Positions 8,195-46,088 of a stretch of DNA of 49,092 bases are shown here, piece after piece. This DNA is from a virus. The notes under the pieces were generated by a model. That model had not been told where the DNA came from. It searched no databases and was given only the letters and a program-made list of their open reading frames with translations. How positions within the stretch are numbered: position 1 is the stretch's first letter; each line of letters opens with the position of its first letter. The stretch lies in the IMG/VR virus record IMGVR_UViG_3300028025_001202, positions 1-49,092 of that record. One strand, given 5' to 3'. Made by a program: the position numbers and the translations under genes.

Positions 8195-8288
8195 GTCAAC
8201 CGCTTCGATAGATGCAAGTAGCTCCGAGAGTGCTGTGCAAATGATAGAATTTTTACTTGAACTAATTAAATCTTTAGAAAATGATTAA
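8151..8288 (+). CDS. Small predicted protein bridging to nrdA
   Basis: A 45-residue frame starting MPNSPIKMEIVLPDK and ending IKSLEND. It fills the gap before nrdA exactly, overlapping the upstream gene by 44 bases and the nrdA start by 8 bases, which is the packing style of this block. The second half is an amphipathic Leu-rich helix. It may start instead at the internal ATG at 8172. No family is recognised; support comes from position and an open frame only. Confidence 0.5.
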   Translation: MPNSPIKMEIVLPDKSTASIDASSSESAVQMIEFLLELIKSLEND

Positions 8289-10044
8289 TCACGCAGAGAG
8301 CCTAGGATGGGAACTAGATGTAGATTTCCCAGCTTGGGGTAACTCACCCGAATACGTAAAGACAATCTCAGGTGGATACCTGCTTGCAGGAGAGAAACCA
8401 ATAAACGCATACGCACGTGTGTCTCGTGCTGTAGCTGATAGACTTGGTAAGCCTGAGTTGGCTGACAAGTTCTTTCAATACATTTGGAATGGATGGTTAA
8501 ACCTAGCCACACCTGTGCTATCTAACACAGGAACAGACAGAGGCTTACCTATTTCTTGTTATGGTATTGACATTGAGGACTCAGTGTTTGATATCGGAAC
8601 CAAAAACTTAGAGATGATGCTACTAGCCAAGCATGGTGGCGGAGTAGGTGTGGGCTTTAACCGCATCCGTCCTGCAGGATCAAAGATATCTAAGAACGGT
8701 ACGTCTGATGGTGTTATTCCATTTAGTAAGATATTTGACTCTACTATTCTTGCAACATCACAGGGCAATGTCCGTCGTGGTGCGGCATCGAGTAATCTAA
8801 ACATTGAGCACAAAGACTTTGAGGATTGGTTAGAGATTCGTGAGCCTAAAGGGGATGTAAATCGTCAGTGCTTAAACCTACACCAATGTGCTGTGGTGGG
8901 TGATAAGTTTATGCGTAAGCTAGAAGATGGAGATGTGGATGCCCGTCGCAAGTGGGGTAAGTTACTGCAGAAGCGTAAGGCCACAGGTGAACCGTACATT
9001 ATGTTCAAAGGCAACGTGAACAAGCAGAACCCTGAGGCATACAAGAAGAATAGCTTGAAGGTATACATGACCAACATCTGCTCTGAAATCGTATTGCACA
9101 CAGATGAAAACCATAGCTTTGTTTGTTGTCTGTCATCAGTCAACCTAGCTAAGTACGATGAGTGGAAAGACACAGACTTAATCTATGTAGCTACATGGTT
9201 CCTAGATGGTGTGCTAGAGGAGTTCATCCAAAAAGCTAAGAACATGAAAGGCTTCGAGAATGTAGTTCGCTTCGCTGAGAAAGGTCGTGCTATTGGCCTA
9301 GGTGTACTTGGGTGGCATACATACTTACAACAGAAAGGTATTCCATTCGAAGGACTACTTGCTCAATTTGAGACACGTAAGATATTCTCTCAGATTAAGA
9401 TTGAGTCTGAGCGTGCATCACGTGACATGGCCGCTGAATATGGTGAGCCACTATGGTGCGTAGAGACAGGTATGCGTAACACACACCTTCGTGCTATTGC
9501 TCCCACAGTATCCAACTCTAAACTAAGTGGTAACGTATCAGCTGGTGTTGAGCCTTGGGCCGCTAACGTATTCACAGACCAATCAGCTAAGGGTACATTC
9601 ATTCGCAAGAACAAAGAACTTGAGAAAGTGCTAAAGAAGATTGGCATTAACACTAGAGAGATATGGGATAAGATTCTTGCCGATGGTGGATCAATCCAAG
9701 ACATACCTGAGCTAGACAGTTGGTTCTATGTGAACGGTAAGTTGACAGAGAATCCTGAAGGCGATGACCACATCCCAGTTAAAGATGTATTTAAAACATT
9801 CAAGGAGATAAACCAATTAGAATTAATTAAACAGGCAGGTATCCGTCAGCAGTACATCGACCAATCTGTTTCGTTGAACCTAGCATTCCCATCTCAGGCT
9901 ACACCTAAATGGATTAATCAGGTACACATGGAGGCATGGAGACAACGCATCAAAACATTGTATTATATGCGAACTGAGTCTGTTTTACGTGCTGATATTG
10001 CTACACGTGCAACCGACCCTGATTGTTTATCTTGTGATGGTTAA
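8281..10044 (+). CDS. nrdA: Ribonucleotide reductase class I, alpha subunit
   Basis: 587 residues, shorter than the E. coli enzyme (761) because the N-terminal ATP cone is absent; overall inhibition by dATP is therefore not expected. Catalytic parts are present: C93 in ISCYG, the N265-C267-E269 triad in TNICSEI, the second redox cysteine at C282/C283, the radical-transfer pair Y561-Y562, and the C-terminal CLSC pair C582/C585 that is re-reduced by a thiol donor. I see no thioredoxin or glutaredoxin gene, so a host donor is probably used. Together with nrdB it makes dNDPs from ribonucleotides during infection. Confidence 0.95.
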   Translation: MINHAESLGWELDVDFPAWGNSPEYVKTISGGYLLAGEKPINAYARVSRAVADRLGKPELADKFFQYIWNGWLNLATPVLSNTGTDRGLPISCYGIDIEDSVFDIGTKNLEMMLLAKHGGGVGVGFNRIRPAGSKISKNGTSDGVIPFSKIFDSTILATSQGNVRRGAASSNLNIEHKDFEDWLEIREPKGDVNRQCLNLHQCAVVGDKFMRKLEDGDVDARRKWGKLLQKRKATGEPYIMFKGNVNKQNPEAYKKNSLKVYMTNICSEIVLHTDENHSFVCCLSSVNLAKYDEWKDTDLIYVATWFLDGVLEEFIQKAKNMKGFENVVRFAEKGRAIGLGVLGWHTYLQQKGIPFEGLLAQFETRKIFSQIKIESERASRDMAAEYGEPLWCVETGMRNTHLRAIAPTVSNSKLSGNVSAGVEPWAANVFTDQSAKGTFIRKNKELEKVLKKIGINTREIWDKILADGGSIQDIPELDSWFYVNGKLTENPEGDDHIPVKDVFKTFKEINQLELIKQAGIRQQYIDQSVSLNLAFPSQATPKWINQVHMEAWRQRIKTLYYMRTESVLRADIATRATDPDCLSCDG

Positions 10045-37316: not shown

Positions 37317-39350
37317 ATGAAGCTACTATACTTAATTCCTCACTGTTCAACTGGCGGGATGCCTGCATTTGTTTTACAAAGTATTATCTGCAGTAATTTA
37401 GATATAGAGGTGGTAGAGTATCAATGCCATAGCCTAGATTATGTCGTACAACGTAATGCCATTAAAAGTCTTGTTCCTTTTCATACTTTGCACGAGGACA
37501 AGATGGAATTATTTAATATCATAGCTAAGTTCAACCCTGACATTGTTCACATTCACGAGCCAGCTGAACGCTTTAATCGTGATATGATATCTGAATTATA
37601 TCGTGAAGACCGAAGGTACAGAATTGTGGAGACGTGTCACGACGTGTCATTTAACCATGACAAAGAAAAGATATTTAATCCTGATGCGTATTACTTCTGC
37701 ACACCATATCACTTAGAGACATTCGCTTCATCGCCATCTTACAAAGAGGTGATTGAGTTTCCAATAGATGATAAAAGAAATGACCTGTATCTAAATCCTT
37801 TTGACACAAGAGAAATAAACGTAGTCAATGTGGGATTATGGACTCCTGGTAAAAACCAAGCTGAGGGTCTTGAAATAGCTAAGAAGTATCCACATATGAA
37901 CTTTCACTTTGTTGGAAACCAAGCTATAAATTTCAAGCATTACTGGGAGCCATTAATGAAGGATTTGCCAGCCAATGTGAAAATATGGGGAGAAAGAAGA
38001 GATGTAGAAAATTATATGAGATGGGCAGATATATTTATGTTCAACTCTACTTGGGAGTGTAACCCTTTGGTATTACGTGAGGCAATATCTTTTGGTAAGC
38101 CAATTATAGCTCACAACCTGCCACAATATGGCTCAATGTTTAATAAGTATATTCAACCCATAGATACTGACTTAAATACTATTAAATGTAATTACACTAT
38201 ACCTACAGATAATACATCTTGGAAATTCTGGGATAAACAAATGGCATTCTATAATAAAGTAATGACACTAGACAAACAAGAACAAGATGTAACCATCATC
38301 CAACACTTTGTTGGTCAACCATACCTAGAAATTAAATCAGGACTGAAAGCCGACTTTAAGGTACAATACTTTGATGGCGACAAGTTAGTCTACGAGAATA
38401 CTATCGGATCAAATAGTTGGGTAAAACTAAATAGACAATACTATACTAAGTGGCATAGTAAAGTCTATATGGATGGTAAACTAATTCACGATAACGTACT
38501 CGACCTAGAAGGCAAGCGTGTGTACATCGCTATATCTAGTAAGTCATTAGGCGACACAATTGCTTGGGCTCCATACGCTTTAGAATTCCAAAAGAAGCAT
38601 AAGTGTAAAGTAATTATGTCAACTTTTTTGAACAAAATACTTGACATTCCTGAAATAGAGTTAGTAAAACCTGGAACAGTGGTGCCTAACGTGTATGCTC
38701 AATATAACATTGGCTGGTTCTACGACACAAACAAAGAGCCTGAACTACCTAACACAATTAAATTACAAGAGGCAGCTACTAAGATATTAGGACTTGAGTT
38801 TAAAGAGATTATGCCTAAATTAAAGTATGAGCCAGGTAATAATAACTATGGTAAATATATTACGATAGCTACTAATTCTACAGCTGGGTGTAAGTTTTGG
38901 ACAAAAGAGGGATGGCAAGGAGTGATAAACTATTTGCACGGAAAAGGCTACAAAGTAATTAATGTATCACTTGAGCCTAATCCTTTTGATAACTGTGAGC
39001 AGATTATTAATTATGACATCCAAAAGACAATGGCTATTATTCACCATAGTCAATTTTACCTAGGCTTAGGCAGCGGAGTCTCATGGTTAGCAAATGCATT
39101 AGGGAAAGAAGTAGTTATGATTAATAACTTCGCTGCAGATGGCCACGAGTTTGAGTGTATACGTGTGACTAACAAGTCAGTATGCAACAGTTGTTGGAAC
39201 AACCCTAACTTTAAATTCGATGCGGGGGATTGGGACTGGTGCCCCATCTTTAAAAATACTCCCCGACATTTTGAGTGCCAGAGGAGTATATCTGCTGATG
39301 ATGTAATATTACTTCTTAGTAAAAACGCCAAGCAATTGGGCCTTAGCTAA
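37317..39350 (+). CDS. Two-domain glycosyltransferase: GT4-like plus autotransporter O-heptosyltransferase (TibC/Aah-like)
   Basis: 677 residues. Residues 1-320 are a GT-B fold of the GT4 type (LLYLIPHCSTGGMPAFVLQS at the start, then NVVNVGLWTPGKNQAEGLE and ECNPLVLREAISFGKPIIAH). A strand-loop-strand segment (about 325-400) leads into a second GT-B domain of the bacterial autotransporter heptosyltransferase family: SLGDTIAWAPYALEF, then LGLGSGVSWLANALGK. Its four-cysteine iron finger is intact (C623, C626, C642, C654). In bacteria these enzymes add heptose to Ser/Thr of autotransporter repeats; the fused GT4 domain could extend or supply the sugar. It is the only + strand gene in a leftward block and overlaps the end of the next gene by 42 bases. 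The fibre's GTS repeats are the obvious candidate target. Confidence 0.88.
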   Translation: MKLLYLIPHCSTGGMPAFVLQSIICSNLDIEVVEYQCHSLDYVVQRNAIKSLVPFHTLHEDKMELFNIIAKFNPDIVHIHEPAERFNRDMISELYREDRRYRIVETCHDVSFNHDKEKIFNPDAYYFCTPYHLETFASSPSYKEVIEFPIDDKRNDLYLNPFDTREINVVNVGLWTPGKNQAEGLEIAKKYPHMNFHFVGNQAINFKHYWEPLMKDLPANVKIWGERRDVENYMRWADIFMFNSTWECNPLVLREAISFGKPIIAHNLPQYGSMFNKYIQPIDTDLNTIKCNYTIPTDNTSWKFWDKQMAFYNKVMTLDKQEQDVTIIQHFVGQPYLEIKSGLKADFKVQYFDGDKLVYENTIGSNSWVKLNRQYYTKWHSKVYMDGKLIHDNVLDLEGKRVYIAISSKSLGDTIAWAPYALEFQKKHKCKVIMSTFLNKILDIPEIELVKPGTVVPNVYAQYNIGWFYDTNKEPELPNTIKLQEAATKILGLEFKEIMPKLKYEPGNNNYGKYITIATNSTAGCKFWTKEGWQGVINYLHGKGYKVINVSLEPNPFDNCEQIINYDIQKTMAIIHHSQFYLGLGSGVSWLANALGKEVVMINNFAADGHEFECIRVTNKSVCNSCWNNPNFKFDAGDWDWCPIFKNTPRHFECQRSISADDVILLLSKNAKQLGLS

Positions 39351-40425: not shown

Positions 40426-43400
40426 TTAGTTTAAGTTTAGTTGTTTCTCTAATTCTTCCACACGTTTCTCTAGTCTTGCAATCTTAGCTGTATGTACCTC
40501 ACGATAAGAAAGACTTAATAAACCTTTGTCTCCAACACTTACTGCACTTGGTAATATCCCTTGTACATCTTGTGCAAAATATCCAAGCTCTTCCTTACCA
40601 TCCTTAATGTACAACTTAGCTGTAACAGATTCAATTCCTCTAGCTTCATAGTTATCTACAAGTAGAGTCTTAATAGTTTTATCTGATGACTCAAAGAATG
40701 ATGTTGCTGTAACAGAGCCGCTAAATGTTGTTGCACCAGCTGATGTTATAAGAAGTATTTGTCCTGCAGCTCCTGTACCTATACTAAAATCATTTCCAGC
40801 AGAACCAATGTTACCTAGTGACCAGTTTACATTTGCCGCAAAACCTATTCTTCCCCAATATTGGCCTGAACCATAATCATAATAACCAAACCTTATTCTA
40901 TCATCTGCTCCAGGTGTATTAAGGGCTGAATATGCAGCATTAGCACTAAATAATCCATCTTGTGTATATGCATAAAATCCACACCTAAATTTTAAGAATG
41001 AACTAAAAATTCCTGTTCCTGCAACATTTAATTTATATCCATTATCCGTTGTGGTGCCAATTAACACATTGCCTCCATCTCCATTTAATACTAAAGGTCT
41101 ATAAGCTACAGCTTGTTCTACAGCTTGTATTCTACCATATCCTGAAGAGTGATATCCTAATATTAATTGTTGATTAAAATTGCTACCTCTTCTGATAATA
41201 AACTGCTCATTTCCCGAGTCTGTAGAAATTAATACTTGACCATCAAATCTACCCGTTCCTGAAACGTACAATCTGTTTCCCGCATCCGTTGTGGTACCTA
41301 TTAGGACGTTACCTCCATTTTTTACTAATATTAAATTCGGATTGCCACTGCTAACATTCGCAAATTCCCACATACTTCGCCAAGCACTACCATTAAATGC
41401 CGCAGCAACAATTGTACTTCCATTAGTTCCTGCACTACTAGGAATTATTGTTAAATTATTATTAACAACATTATCAATATATAATAATGTTCCTGATAGT
41501 AAATCTCCTCCACCTGTATAATTTGATGCAATTCTAAATGTGCTTTGTGTTCCTGTTATATTTAAAGATTGACCATTTAATGTGCCACCTGCTGTAATAT
41601 TAGTTCCTGCGGTAATACTACTTTGAAAGCTAGCGGCTCCATTAGACGCTATTCGAAATCTAATTTCATTAGCAGTAAACGCAACTAAATCATTTACATC
41701 ACATCCTATTCTTGTATTAAAATCATTTGTAGATGTTGTACCTTGAAATGATAAAGTTGAAATTGCTCCATTACTACTTCTAATTACAGCAGGTACAGCA
41801 TCATTTGTTGATACAACCGTAAGTGTTCTACCTGTGCCACTAAACCTCCCCGTACCATTCACATCAAGTCTGAAGCCTGCGTCTGTTGTTCCATTTATTG
41901 TTATATTACCTGATGAAGCAACAGTAATATTGTGACGTGCTGCTGTGTTATCATAACACATATAAAAAGTGCCATCTCCAGCACCCATTGAATAATTACG
42001 AATTCCTCCTTGTAAATTTATAACTGCATAACCTGATGCATTAATTGATAATTGTTTGGTTGTTGTACCACTTCCCCAAGCAGTATTAACAGGAGTTAAT
42101 GTGTTAATCCCTAATGAACCAGCTGATGTTAAATGCATTTGATTAGTAGCTGCAATGCCTCCCCAATACAACCCACCCCCATTTGCATACATTGCAATAT
42201 ATCCACTTGAAGCCACAGATTTAAGTGCAAGAGAATTTAAAAATTCTATATCTCCCCCACTCGTTATACTCATACGTTCAATAGGAGTTTGAGATGCTCC
42301 ATCCGCACAAGTACTAAAAACAAGATTTGCTCCCATTGCAGGAGAAGATCCTCCGTTAGGAACTAATTTAGCTCCAATATAAGCAACGTCTCTTTGTGTA
42401 GTATTTGAAAGATCGTAGCCTCTAAAGTTTATATATCCAGTAGCAGAAGAAAATATATTATTCCCAGGGACATCTATTCTTAAAACTTCTTGTAATGCAC
42501 TACCTGTTATTGTGCCAGGATATATTTCAAGTTTTGCATTAGGTGTAGCCGTACCAATTCCTACATTTGTTGCATTGTCAAATATCTGACTATTACCAAT
42601 AGTACTTGCACCCGTGAACTTAGGCACATAATTAATGGTTCCTGATATATTTGCCGTTGTCGCAATTGCAACACCTCTCCACGTTAATGCACCGCCATTA
42701 ACTGCACCTAACGAATTACCTGTTGTTTCTGAAAAATTTATATATCCTCTGTCATTATTTTGAATACCTGCAACAAATATTGTATTAGCTATATTTCTAT
42801 CTGAAATTGTTGCATCATCTCCTACATTTATTCCAATTGCACCATTTACTAATGTGATTGCACCTGTCATCGTACCTCCTGCTAATGGTAAATAAGCTCC
42901 TGTTGGTGAAACAGATGTGTTAACAGAGCCATCAGCCATTAAGAACTGAGAAGATGTACCACCTGACTTAATAAATTTATTAGCAGTGATGTCCCCACTA
43001 AATGATGCACTACCACTAGCATTTAAAGTGATTCCTCCAACCAACGATAATGGTTCACAAACAAATGCAGGGCCATCTGCTTTTACATATATACCTGCAG
43101 ACCCTGGGTCAGTGTTAATGAAACTAGCCACATAATTATCAATCGCAGCACCTGATACAGTGATTGAGCCTGATGCCTCTGTGATAATACTATCTCCAAT
43201 TGTATTGGCTCCTGTAGCCTTAGGTATTTTATTAGTTGTAAGTGTACCTGTAATCTGACCAACTGGAGTTGTACCTGATGATCCTGATGTTCCATTCACA
43301 CCTGACGTGCCTGATGTACCGTTAACTCCACTAGTACCGTTCACTCCTGAAGTTCCGTTGATGCCTGATGTACCTGATACACCACTTGTTCCACTTGCTC

Positions 43401-45384
43401 CTGAACTTCCGCTTGAACCGCTTTCTCCACTTGTTCCACTACTGCCACTAACACCGCTTGTACCATCTACTCCTGACGTACCACTAACTCCTGATGTACC
43501 GCTTACTCCGCTTGTACCGTCAGCTCCTGAGGTTCCACTAGTACCCGACTCTCCACTAGTACCTGAAGAACCTGTAAGTCCTGAAGAGCCACTAGTTCCG
43601 TTAACACCGCTTGAACCTGATGTACCTGATGTGCCTGACTCAAATCCTATTGATGTAATTACATAAGAGTACTCAGAGTTCTCTGTGTAAAAATCTAATG
43701 CTCTTAATTGATTGTCATCATTGTTTACATATAAACTAACTAATACTTTCCATGTTGGGTCAATAGGTGTAGTTGCAAAAACTACATCTACAAAAACATT
43801 AGTAGGAGTTGTTGCGTTAACCCAAGCCAATGGGGCTGTATTTGTTAATACAGGGCTACCAATAGGTGTTCCGTTTGATTGGGTAAACTGAACACTAGCA
43901 TATGTAGATATATTATCGCTTTGGTCTTCTTTTAAATATTCTAAAGTGAATCTTTGAACACCTGCCGGGATAATAGTAAATCCTAATTCTTCTGTAATAA
44001 ATTGAGCTACTAACTTATCTTGCTCATTTGCTATTAAAGATACAGGTACAATAGACGGAGCTGGCAATGTTGTAGGCTCCTCACTCAAATTTTTGTATGG
44101 GGATATAGAACCTGCTTGTGAGTAGTTTAAATAATATATTCTACCACTAGATATTCCTTGAGCACCTGATGTACCTGCACTACCGTTAGTACCTGATGTG
44201 CCTGATGATCCTGTCAATCCTGATGACCCTGAAGTACCACTAGTACCTGTAGTACCTGATGTACCGCCTGTTCCGTCTGTACCTGAACTACCTGATGAGC
44301 CACTAGTTCCATCAATACCTGATGTGCCATTTACTCCTGAAGTGCCATCAATACCTGATGAGCCACTAGACCCTGAAGTACCACTAGTACCACCTGTGCC
44401 ATCTGTACCCGAAGTACCGCCAGTACCATCTGTACCGCTAGTTCCTCCTGTGCCTGATGTGCCATCTATTCCACTTGACCCGCTAGTTCCTCCTGAACCA
44501 CTTGAACCGCTAGTACCATCTATTCCCGATGTACCTCCTGTGCCATCTGTACCTGAACTACCTGATGTACCTGTTGTTCCTGACGTACCGTCTGTTCCAT
44601 CGATACCATCAATACCTGACGTACCTGACGTACCACGTGTACCTGAGGTGCCGTCTGAACCATTCGTTCCGCTAGTACCTGATGTGCCACCTGTGCCTGA
44701 TGAGCCTGATGTACCTGTTGTACCTGATGACCCACTTGTGCCAGCCGTGCCTGATGAGCCACTTGTACCTGTGGTGCCTGATGAGCCGCTTGTACCGTTT
44801 ACGCCACTAGTGCCTGATGTACCTGTCGTACCACTTGTACCTGAAGTACCTGTAGTACCACTTGTACCACTCACGCCTGTGAATAAGCCAAATGTAACCG
44901 GCTCGTCTTCAGAAATAGTTCCTGAGTTACCGCCAATAAAATCTAAGTCTAAGAAATAATAATCGCCATCTTCAACAACAGCTGTTACTTTGTATAGTCC
45001 GTATTCGCTAGGGAATCCTGGTCGATTAACAAGAATAATCTTGTCGTTCCAAACTTCTTCAATGAATATACCTGGCTCTGTGTTGGCCATGGTTAAGAAA
45101 GAAACCTTGATGGTCCCTGCGAGTCCAATTACATCTACTGTATCAAATGGATGGTCGACTAACTCAAACGTCTTCGCAGGCTGCGTTTCTGTTGGAGCAT
45201 ACATTCTGTATGACCAATTAAAACTACCTGTATCAATAATACCTACACGATTGAAGTATTCCGCTACAGCGTTGGCTGTAAAGTTTTTGGTTAATTTATC
45301 TGGAGTTTGCCAGTCCGAGCCTATCCAACGGTCGTTACCGGTGACATCTAAATCGGGAGAATACGTTGAGATTCTAGCACACAT
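40426..45384 (-). CDS. Collagen-like tail fibre with S74-type C-terminal chaperone
   Basis: 1652 residues. The first 165 residues are a compact attachment domain (ending GNSGTISEDEPVTFGLFTG). Two collagen-like arrays of Gly-X-Y triplets, mainly GTS/GSS/GVS/GVN, occupy about 170-410 and 582-705, split by a beta domain. The remaining shaft is Asn/Gly/Thr-rich with repeated fragments such as NVLIGTTTDAGNRLYVSGTG. The C-terminus (ESSDKTIKTLL, then LGYFAQDVQGILPSAV) is the intramolecular chaperone of the S74 peptidase family, and it ends in a coiled coil (ARLEKRVEELEKQ). It should form trimeric fibres for host recognition. Ser/Thr-rich arrays next to a TibC-like gene suggest glycosylation. Confidence 0.88.
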   Translation of the reverse strand: MCARISTYSPDLDVTGNDRWIGSDWQTPDKLTKNFTANAVAEYFNRVGIIDTGSFNWSYRMYAPTETQPAKTFELVDHPFDTVDVIGLAGTIKVSFLTMANTEPGIFIEEVWNDKIILVNRPGFPSEYGLYKVTAVVEDGDYYFLDLDFIGGNSGTISEDEPVTFGLFTGVSGTSGTTGTSGTSGTTGTSGTSGVNGTSGSSGTTGTSGSSGTAGTSGSSGTTGTSGSSGTGGTSGTSGTNGSDGTSGTRGTSGTSGIDGIDGTDGTSGTTGTSGSSGTDGTGGTSGIDGTSGSSGSGGTSGSSGIDGTSGTGGTSGTDGTGGTSGTDGTGGTSGTSGSSGSSGIDGTSGVNGTSGIDGTSGSSGSSGTDGTGGTSGTTGTSGTSGSSGLTGSSGTSGTNGSAGTSGAQGISSGRIYYLNYSQAGSISPYKNLSEEPTTLPAPSIVPVSLIANEQDKLVAQFITEELGFTIIPAGVQRFTLEYLKEDQSDNISTYASVQFTQSNGTPIGSPVLTNTAPLAWVNATTPTNVFVDVVFATTPIDPTWKVLVSLYVNNDDNQLRALDFYTENSEYSYVITSIGFESGTSGTSGSSGVNGTSGSSGLTGSSGTSGESGTSGTSGADGTSGVSGTSGVSGTSGVDGTSGVSGSSGTSGESGSSGSSGASGTSGVSGTSGINGTSGVNGTSGVNGTSGTSGVNGTSGSSGTTPVGQITGTLTTNKIPKATGANTIGDSIITEASGSITVSGAAIDNYVASFINTDPGSAGIYVKADGPAFVCEPLSLVGGITLNASGSASFSGDITANKFIKSGGTSSQFLMADGSVNTSVSPTGAYLPLAGGTMTGAITLVNGAIGINVGDDATISDRNIANTIFVAGIQNNDRGYINFSETTGNSLGAVNGGALTWRGVAIATTANISGTINYVPKFTGASTIGNSQIFDNATNVGIGTATPNAKLEIYPGTITGSALQEVLRIDVPGNNIFSSATGYINFRGYDLSNTTQRDVAYIGAKLVPNGGSSPAMGANLVFSTCADGASQTPIERMSITSGGDIEFLNSLALKSVASSGYIAMYANGGGLYWGGIAATNQMHLTSAGSLGINTLTPVNTAWGSGTTTKQLSINASGYAVINLQGGIRNYSMGAGDGTFYMCYDNTAARHNITVASSGNITINGTTDAGFRLDVNGTGRFSGTGRTLTVVSTNDAVPAVIRSSNGAISTLSFQGTTSTNDFNTRIGCDVNDLVAFTANEIRFRIASNGAASFQSSITAGTNITAGGTLNGQSLNITGTQSTFRIASNYTGGGDLLSGTLLYIDNVVNNNLTIIPSSAGTNGSTIVAAAFNGSAWRSMWEFANVSSGNPNLILVKNGGNVLIGTTTDAGNRLYVSGTGRFDGQVLISTDSGNEQFIIRRGSNFNQQLILGYHSSGYGRIQAVEQAVAYRPLVLNGDGGNVLIGTTTDNGYKLNVAGTGIFSSFLKFRCGFYAYTQDGLFSANAAYSALNTPGADDRIRFGYYDYGSGQYWGRIGFAANVNWSLGNIGSAGNDFSIGTGAAGQILLITSAGATTFSGSVTATSFFESSDKTIKTLLVDNYEARGIESVTAKLYIKDGKEELGYFAQDVQGILPSAVSVGDKGLLSLSYREVHTAKIARLEKRVEELEKQLNLN
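43271..43640 (-). repeat. Collagen-like repeat array 2 in the fibre
   Basis: About 370 bases of degenerate 9-base units encoding Gly-X-Y triplets (GTSGVSGTSGVNG and similar). Codons vary, so the DNA repeats are imperfect. The + strand frame reads Pro-rich (PDVPLVP) and is a shadow. Confidence 0.85.
44155..44880 (-). repeat. Collagen-like repeat array 1 in the fibre
   Basis: About 725 bases of 9-base units encoding roughly 80 Gly-X-Y triplets rich in Thr and Ser (GTSGTTGTSG, GSSGIDGTSG). Triplets with Asp or Asn (GTDG, GIDG) interrupt the array. Such arrays can change length by slippage or recombination and can alter fibre length. Confidence 0.85.
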
Positions 45385-45410: not shown

Positions 45411-45418
45411 CAAAAATA
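45411..45418 (-). promoter_or_regulatory. -7 promoter box of the fibre gene
   Basis: On the minus strand it reads TATTTTTG, a full TAnnTTTG match, 26 bases upstream of the fibre ATG in the short gap after the HNH gene. No TTG is seen at the standard distance. It would let the fibre be expressed independently of the inserted HNH gene. Confidence 0.45.
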
Positions 45419-45425
45419 CGGAATT

Positions 45426-45956
45426 TTACAGATACTTATTTATTATACCATTATCCTTTTCATACTTACATCTAGCAGCATAAGCATCTTCTTCTGAAAT
45501 AAAATGACCGATTGTTTTTTGCTTACCATTAATTTGCATAACTGCGACATACTTTTGTTTTGCTTTTATCCAAGTAACGCCAGTGTATTTACTAGTTGTA
45601 TTTATTTTATTAAATCTATGACAATTGTTTTCAATCATTGACACCCATTCTAAATTAGAATAGTGATTGTTTAATTTGTTCCCATCTAGGTGATTCACAA
45701 AATCACGACCTTCTTCTCTAGGCAAAAATGCTTCAGCTACTAATCTGTGCACAGAATACTTCATTGGTTTACCATTTCTTCTAAGTGAAATTCTTTTATA
45801 ACCTGCATTACTAATAAAAGGCGTTAATTCTTTTCCTGTTACAGGATATATAGATCCGTCTGACCTTTTATATTTCCTGTCTAATGATTTAACTTTTCCG
45901 CTTTCACTAACCATAAAGTGCCCTTCATAGCCAACAACATCTTTCCAAATTTCCAT
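45426..45956 (-). CDS. HNH homing endonuclease with NUMOD4 and AP2 domains
   Basis: 176 residues from the ATG at 45956 (MEIWKDVVGYEGHFMVSESG). Residues 2-30 are a NUMOD4 DNA-binding motif. The HNH core is H70 in YSVHRLVAEAFLP and NHLDGNKLNNHYSNLEW at 88-104. Residues about 122-166 are an AP2-type DNA-binding domain (SKYTGVTWIKAKQKYVAV). It is a free-standing homing endonuclease, a mobile gene that cuts phage genomes lacking it. It sits between lysis and fibre genes and interrupts no gene. A strongly structured leader lies directly before it. Confidence 0.9.
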   Translation of the reverse strand: MEIWKDVVGYEGHFMVSESGKVKSLDRKYKRSDGSIYPVTGKELTPFISNAGYKRISLRRNGKPMKYSVHRLVAEAFLPREEGRDFVNHLDGNKLNNHYSNLEWVSMIENNCHRFNKINTTSKYTGVTWIKAKQKYVAVMQINGKQKTIGHFISEEDAYAARCKYEKDNGIINKYL

Positions 45957-45965
45957 ATAAAAAAT

Positions 45966-46049
45966 AAGTCCTACAAAATCCACCGCATCTCACCTCGGTT
46001 TCATTTATAGGACTGTTTTTGTCTTTGTTGCGTAATGTGAGATGGCAAC
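45966..46049 (-). ncRNA. Predicted structured RNA with kissing loops in the HNH leader
   Basis: In the 132-base gap before the HNH start, minus-strand RNA can form four helices. P1: 46045-46049 with 46027-46031 (GUUGC/GCAAC). P2: 46004-46014 with 45967-45977 (11 pairs, one G-U). P3: 45996-45999 with 45982-45985. A loop-loop helix of 8 pairs joins the P1 loop (46037-46044, CAUCUCAC) to the P3 loop (45986-45993, GUGAGAUG). The G-U in P2 would be an unpaired C-A in the opposite transcript, so the structure belongs to the minus strand. P2 and P3 stack across a 4x4 internal loop with G/A mismatches. It may regulate HNH translation, or be a ribozyme or other RNA. I match it to no known family. Confidence 0.6.
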
Positions 46050-46088
46050 TACATGGCAAATGTAAAAATAAATAATATAAAAAACAAG

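Follow-up and report, generated by a model that had tools for sequence, protein, structure and literature searches.

A promoter-linked kissing-loop leader upstream of a phage HNH homing endonuclease gene and its RNA family

The HNH locus and the fold of its leader

The window, a 49,092-nt stretch of viral DNA (IMG/VR record IMGVR_UViG_3300028025_001202), derives from a virus whose terminase shares 67% identity with that of an uncultured podovirus and about 44% with those of the Flavobacterium elemo phages. A gene for a 176-aa NUMOD4-HNH_3 homing endonuclease occupies positions 45,426–45,956 of the minus strand and has a 138-aa gene on one side and a large tail-fibre gene on the other. The tail-fibre gene encodes long collagen-like GTSGTSGSSG repeats (42,000–44,900) that give rise to overlapping spurious ORFs on both strands. 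Elsewhere in the window, a phage-encoded ribonucleotide reductase large subunit (8,281–10,044) lies amid helicase and exonuclease genes.

Upstream of the HNH gene, the minus strand carries TACATTTG (46,057–46,064), a match to the Bacteroidota −7 promoter consensus TAnnTTTG (PMC7366714), 7 nt before the first hairpin of the leader. A TTG at 46,085–46,087, 20 nt further upstream, is a possible −33 element, though weak alone. The leader itself folds as minus-strand RNA (46,049–45,967). Hairpin 1 (46,027–46,049) has the stem GTTGC/GCAAC (46,049–46,045 with 46,031–46,027) and the loop CATCTCACATTAC. Hairpin 2 (45,967–46,014) comprises an 11-bp outer helix (AGTCCTATAAA/TTTGTAGGACT, 46,014–46,004 with 45,977–45,967), a 4×4 internal loop (UGAA/GGAU) with tandem G-A juxtapositions, a 4-bp inner helix (ACCG/CGGT, 45,999–45,996 with 45,985–45,982), and a 10-nt loop. 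The two loops kiss through CATCTCAC (46,037–46,044) and GTGAGATG (45,986–45,993), which form eight pairs, all Watson-Crick (46,044–46,037 with 45,993–45,986). Between the hairpins lies an A-rich linker, AAAGACAAAAAC (46,015–46,026; family consensus roughly AAARACATTA), and directly 3′ of hairpin 2 is a U-rich run, TATTTTTTAT (45,957–45,966). The HNH start codon, ATG 45,956, follows hairpin 2 at a distance of 10 nt and takes part in none of the helices. GTG 45,983, the start of a longer ORF, lies within hairpin 2, and two related contigs, L001 and L003, do not preserve it.

A first-pass annotation of this DNA had described four mutually compatible helices, one pair of which could form only in minus-strand RNA, and had judged such a fold rare by chance. 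The minus strand does contain the four helices, and the outer helix of hairpin 2 contains one U-G pair whose plus-strand equivalent is A-C. The z-score of the minimum free energy is −3.26 for the minus strand vs −0.95 for the plus strand. The combined fold score of 57.5 was reached by none of 1000 dinucleotide shuffles (maximum 43.2). In a scan of 769 kb of related loci the window copy, the only one in the window, scores 59.7, and no shuffled sequence scores at least 56. The window leader is a real structured RNA, beyond chance. The annotation had also recognised no RNA family here, and in our covariance-model search no Rfam family matched the leader at its gathering score. This includes the HEARO/IscB omega RNA; the encoded protein is likewise NUMOD4-HNH_3 and not IscB-type.

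Compensatory change and the leader family

The same HNH protein is encoded on three other contigs at 78–94% identity. One of these, L002, has a leader nearly identical to that of the window. The other two, L001 and L003, share both the HNH and the tail-fibre gene with the window but carry a leader unrelated in sequence, and blastn homology starts only 8 nt before the HNH ATG. Homologous leaders that keep the gene but lose complementary helix bases with no compensation had been named in advance as the finding that would speak against the structure. What we found is that the L001/L003 leader again forms two hairpins with complementary loops, TGTAGGAC with GTCCTACA, and that more distant HNH relatives show the same architecture in other sequences. 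The near relatives MW202828 and elemoA lack the element in the 50 kb of each that was examined. When the leader and HNH start were used together as a DNA similarity query, other phages matched only at the NUMOD4-coding start.

Covariation in homologous leaders had been suggested as a check, and orthologues do show compensatory changes. We aligned an orthologous leader that precedes a small gene adjoining a single-stranded DNA-binding protein (SSB) gene, in four distinct sequences 86–100% alike by BLAST (alignment A7). All 28 pairs are formed throughout (112 of 112 cells), with double compensatory changes at six places, the kissing helix accounting for three (GTGAGACG/CGTCTCAC, GTGAGAAG/CTTCTCAC and GTGGAACG/CGTTCCAC); none of 500 shuffles was as good. 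On comparative grounds, no other single result proves the kiss as strongly as these changes. A MAFFT alignment of the leader type with a large hairpin 1 loop (A6) was not structure-true, so no model was built from it. In one variant leader (L070:2376–2494), hairpin 2 carries an inserted extra hairpin close to its kissing loop.

To sample the family gene-blind, we used a DNA pattern that constrained only part of the loops and stems; it returned 86 IMG/VR stretches, and 57 distinct sequences among them entered the analysis. In 57 of 57, the loop positions left free by the pattern are complementary (56 by Watson-Crick pairs, one with a G-U). The outer stem of hairpin 2 occurs with 22 distinct arms, 97.7% paired as opposed to 76% with shuffled partners. 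Most copies of this subfamily have the internal loop UGAU/UGAU; L024 and L026 lack the internal loop. A TAnnTTTG-type box lies upstream of every copy, 4–5 nt before hairpin 1 in all 55 measured, so that these copies, like the window, carry the −7 hallmark of Bacteroidota primary-sigma promoters. The family layout is a TAnnTTTG box, about 5 nt, hairpin 1, an A-rich linker, hairpin 2 and a U-run, with the start codon usually 8–22 nt further on.

Further searches gave concordant results. Scanning 161 loci for a hairpin, a kiss, a second hairpin and a T-run gave 23 matches scoring at least 52 in real DNA vs one in shuffled DNA, and a promoter-anchored version found 14 vs none in 11 phage genomes or parts of genomes. 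Eight copies, with the kiss left out, served to build a covariance model, R1, which recovered about 20 further leader copies. Complementarity of at least 7 nt between a copy's own loops was present in 26 of 28 tested copies, weaker ones included, vs 98 of 756 cross pairs (13%) and 12% of shuffles. One of the two failing copies, L357, has only 6 complementary bases; among strict R1 hits, the only failure was a chromosomal false match. Several candidates were rejected. The lone R1 match in 300 genomes from a single family, sampled around an Algibacter genome, lacks a kiss, a match at position 38873 of Polaribacter phage P12002L is palindromic, and searching viral and genome collections for exact copies of the pattern TGATAAAGANNNNNNNCCTTTTGA gave mostly chance matches and one true one.

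Comparative sequence evidence thus places the window leader in a new promoter-linked family of phage leader RNAs, about 85 nt long, whose copies differ in sequence yet keep the fold. Chance complementarity in an AT-rich intergenic region is hardly conceivable as an explanation, being refuted by the compensatory changes, the shuffle statistics and the 57 of 57 complementary loops. The literature searched holds no description of an element of this kind; that absence is not proof of novelty, but by this measure the element is previously undescribed.

Downstream genes and cassette structure

We initially assumed an association with HNH genes only, an assumption rejected after the gene-blind search. 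By our own count, about 37 of the 50 distinct proteins downstream of pattern-found leaders are nucleases. These include 28 HNH_3, four GIY-YIG and one MUG113/T5orf172 protein, with others HNH or endonuclease VII-like by PHROGs. The proposed link to homing endonucleases therefore holds as a strong bias but is not specific to HNH, since the leader also precedes genes for GIY-YIG and further nucleases, for a helicase and for replication. About 11 of the 50 are conserved 78–79-aa proteins of unassigned function (MNTISVQGFKIDINHF...), found after the leader at L416:9354–9587 and on L385, L386, L387, L393, L408, L413, L424, L438, L380 and L432; the L416 protein has no Pfam or PHROGs match.

Several cultured phages carry the leader. 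Three copies occur in Flavobacterium phage hattifnatt9-1, preceding a helicase gene, a NUMOD4 HNH gene and gp044, with a different kiss sequence each time; leaders at its other TAnnTTTG promoters are short and plain. The element precedes a replication protein in Polaribacter P12002L, gp030/gp024 in Cellulophaga phi19:1 and phi10:1, gp62 in phage 11b, AIX11908 in FCL-2 and an HNH gene in FCV-1.

Leaders before unrelated nucleases are 76–88% alike, a range partly fixed by the search pattern, and similarity drops to about background inside the ORFs that follow. At one site the insertion itself can be delimited: the HNH site of filifjonk9-1 is empty, with flanking genes about 10 nt apart, whereas hattifnatt has about 620 bp there, consisting of promoter, leader and HNH gene. 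This comparison indicates that leader and gene travel together, and for this one insertion site the leader can be said to move with its endonuclease as a promoter-leader-ORF cassette. The earlier suggestion that the leader marks the insertion is thus better recast, with the leader as part of what inserts. The site of the hattifnatt HNH cassette is taken up in lillamy9-2 by a gene (L360:752–1552) whose annotation includes a ParB-like domain.

Possible modes of action

We read the window leader as the 5′ leader of the HNH homing endonuclease mRNA, and propose that it serves as a cassette-borne, transcription-attenuating expression brake tuned by the kiss; we put the probability of this reading at about one half. 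Judging from the spacing, transcription from the TAnnTTTG promoter would start at or just before hairpin 1. The loop of this 5′-terminal hairpin would kiss that of hairpin 2, a pairing supported by covariation, and hairpin 2 with its U-run may form an intrinsic terminator-like attenuator before the start codon. Only a fraction of polymerases would then get through to the gene, and the kiss and linker could tune read-through by keeping hairpin 2 in a fixed shape. The targets of such a brake would be homing endonucleases and a small number of further phage genes, which the leader probably holds in check. The presence of the same leader before helicase and replication genes counts against a brake directed at endonucleases.

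We favour transcription attenuation because hairpin 2 and its U-run resemble an intrinsic terminator, with the G-C-rich stem base and immediate U-run of that class. The first 5 nt after hairpin 2 are 99% T in the pattern set and 91% T in a broad set. At least two of the three basal hairpin 2 pairs are G-C in 55 of 55 pattern-set copies, and at least two of the four basal pairs in 30 of 34 broad-set copies. Exceptions are few: some have A-T basal pairs, and in others, including the window copy, the U-run is interrupted. A simple terminator scan of the window returned no terminator, the loop and internal loop of hairpin 2 exceeding its size limits. The U-run stays beside hairpin 2 even when the ATG is 15–49 nt away, and does so in L397, L406 and L445 with no ORF start nearby, which argues for termination over translation as its role. 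In these three contigs the U-run is followed by a further, apparently structured stretch (TATATAACGTTYC...) ahead of the next clear ORF.

How strong such a terminator could be is constrained by context. The hattifnatt cassette lies within an operon, just upstream of an SSB gene, where a strong terminator should be costly; read-through there would have to be sizeable or termination conditional. In the window, a candidate promoter box (TATTTTTG, 45,411–45,418, minus strand) precedes the tail-fibre gene downstream of HNH (ATG 45,384), and this gene could therefore stay active despite attenuation at the HNH leader. The leader showed no general fold of the mutually exclusive antiterminator kind. 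It shares with bacterial intrinsic terminator attenuators the G-C stem base, the immediate U-run and a position between promoter and ORF, but differs in that no alternative antiterminator helix was found and the terminator loop pairs with a 5′-terminal hairpin of the same RNA.

The foremost alternative, which we consider somewhat unlikely, is translational control, in which a folded leader whose 3′ end lies 8–22 nt from the AUG would impede 30S loading or set its timing, or would shield the 5′ end of the mRNA, with no termination. Hairpin 2 and the U-run do sit where Flavobacterium johnsoniae prefers A-rich, unstructured RNA for initiation (PMC6847099), and hairpin 1 probably contains the 5′ end. 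Ordinary pre-ATG regions of hattifnatt9-1 (L335) are 51% A and 31% T; given this norm and the F. johnsoniae preference, the leader should act as a brake on either reading. Precedent comes from T4-type homing endonuclease mRNAs, in which hairpins bury the ribosome-binding site (RBS) of I-TevI and Aeh1 mobE, with segB implicated (PMC3014915). These leaders likewise place RNA structure ahead of a phage homing endonuclease, and I-TevI too has its own (late) promoter; by analogy, the window leader probably resembles them in purpose. The T4-type control of HNH translation raised in the first-pass annotation nevertheless fails in its mechanism. In T4-type leaders the Shine-Dalgarno sequence or AUG lies inside a helix, whereas here the AUG and its neighbours are unpaired, which rules out RBS sequestration of that kind; the window leader also adds a U-run on hairpin 2 and a second, kissing hairpin, and its fold is common to unrelated nuclease families. 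Translational control in general is further weakened by the U-run tracking hairpin 2 and not the AUG, and by copies with no ORF near.

The complete promoter-RNA-terminator unit, the distance of ORFs from some copies and the same leader ahead of unrelated genes would suit a stand-alone small RNA of ~85 nt, its downstream gene expressed by leakage or acquired through mobility. We think this improbable, as the ORF usually starts 8–22 nt downstream with a strong nuclease bias, no conserved sequence is present that might have a target in trans, and kiss sequences drift freely with compensation. A type III toxin-antitoxin RNA was rejected, the leader being single-copy and the downstream genes not toxins of that kind. 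The HK022 put RNAs, which modify polymerase to read through downstream terminators, also consist of two hairpins at the very start of a phage-promoter transcript, and the leader occurs in operons that need read-through. To our knowledge, put RNAs have no kiss or U-run; the terminator-like 3′ end of the leader and its want of a conserved polymerase-contacting sequence make promoter-proximal antitermination a distinctly poor candidate. A self-cleaving ribozyme, as the annotation had also ventured, or a ligand-binding riboswitch would fit the compact kissing-loop fold and the internal loop conserved in one subfamily. Self-cleavage is unsupported, however, with neither an Rfam ribozyme match nor an invariant core outside the helices across subfamilies, and with L024 and L026 dispensing with the internal loop; we regard both as very improbable.

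Plasmid antisense RNAs such as pMV158 RNAII (PMC4485353) also use loop-loop pairing in a leader region but between antisense partners in trans, where the phage leader has both loops in one RNA. If the attenuator reading is true, the leader would be a natural kissing-loop-clamped terminator, a part undescribed in the literature searched. A more speculative possibility, which we advance only tentatively, is a new class of phage regulatory RNA, in which a kissed terminator-like hairpin carries a per-copy loop code, the terminated leader could also act in trans on its own gene only, and unrelated endonucleases converged on or traded the cassette. More broadly, selfish DNA endonucleases of several unrelated families in Bacteroidota phages share one mobile control unit, made up of promoter and kissing-loop leader. 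It makes testable how free-standing homing endonucleases hold expression low enough to persist, and experiments are possible now in cultured Flavobacterium and Cellulophaga phages. Flavobacterium and Cellulophaga phages also share a conserved stretch, TTTAATAGTTRTMGGTAATCTTWAAACC, which contains a small hairpin and separates the U-run from the start codon of a small gene (L335:14445–14487, L341:10455–10495 and L364:505–545). The crAss-like cr55_1 has a similar stretch, and inspection by eye showed no kissing leader there.
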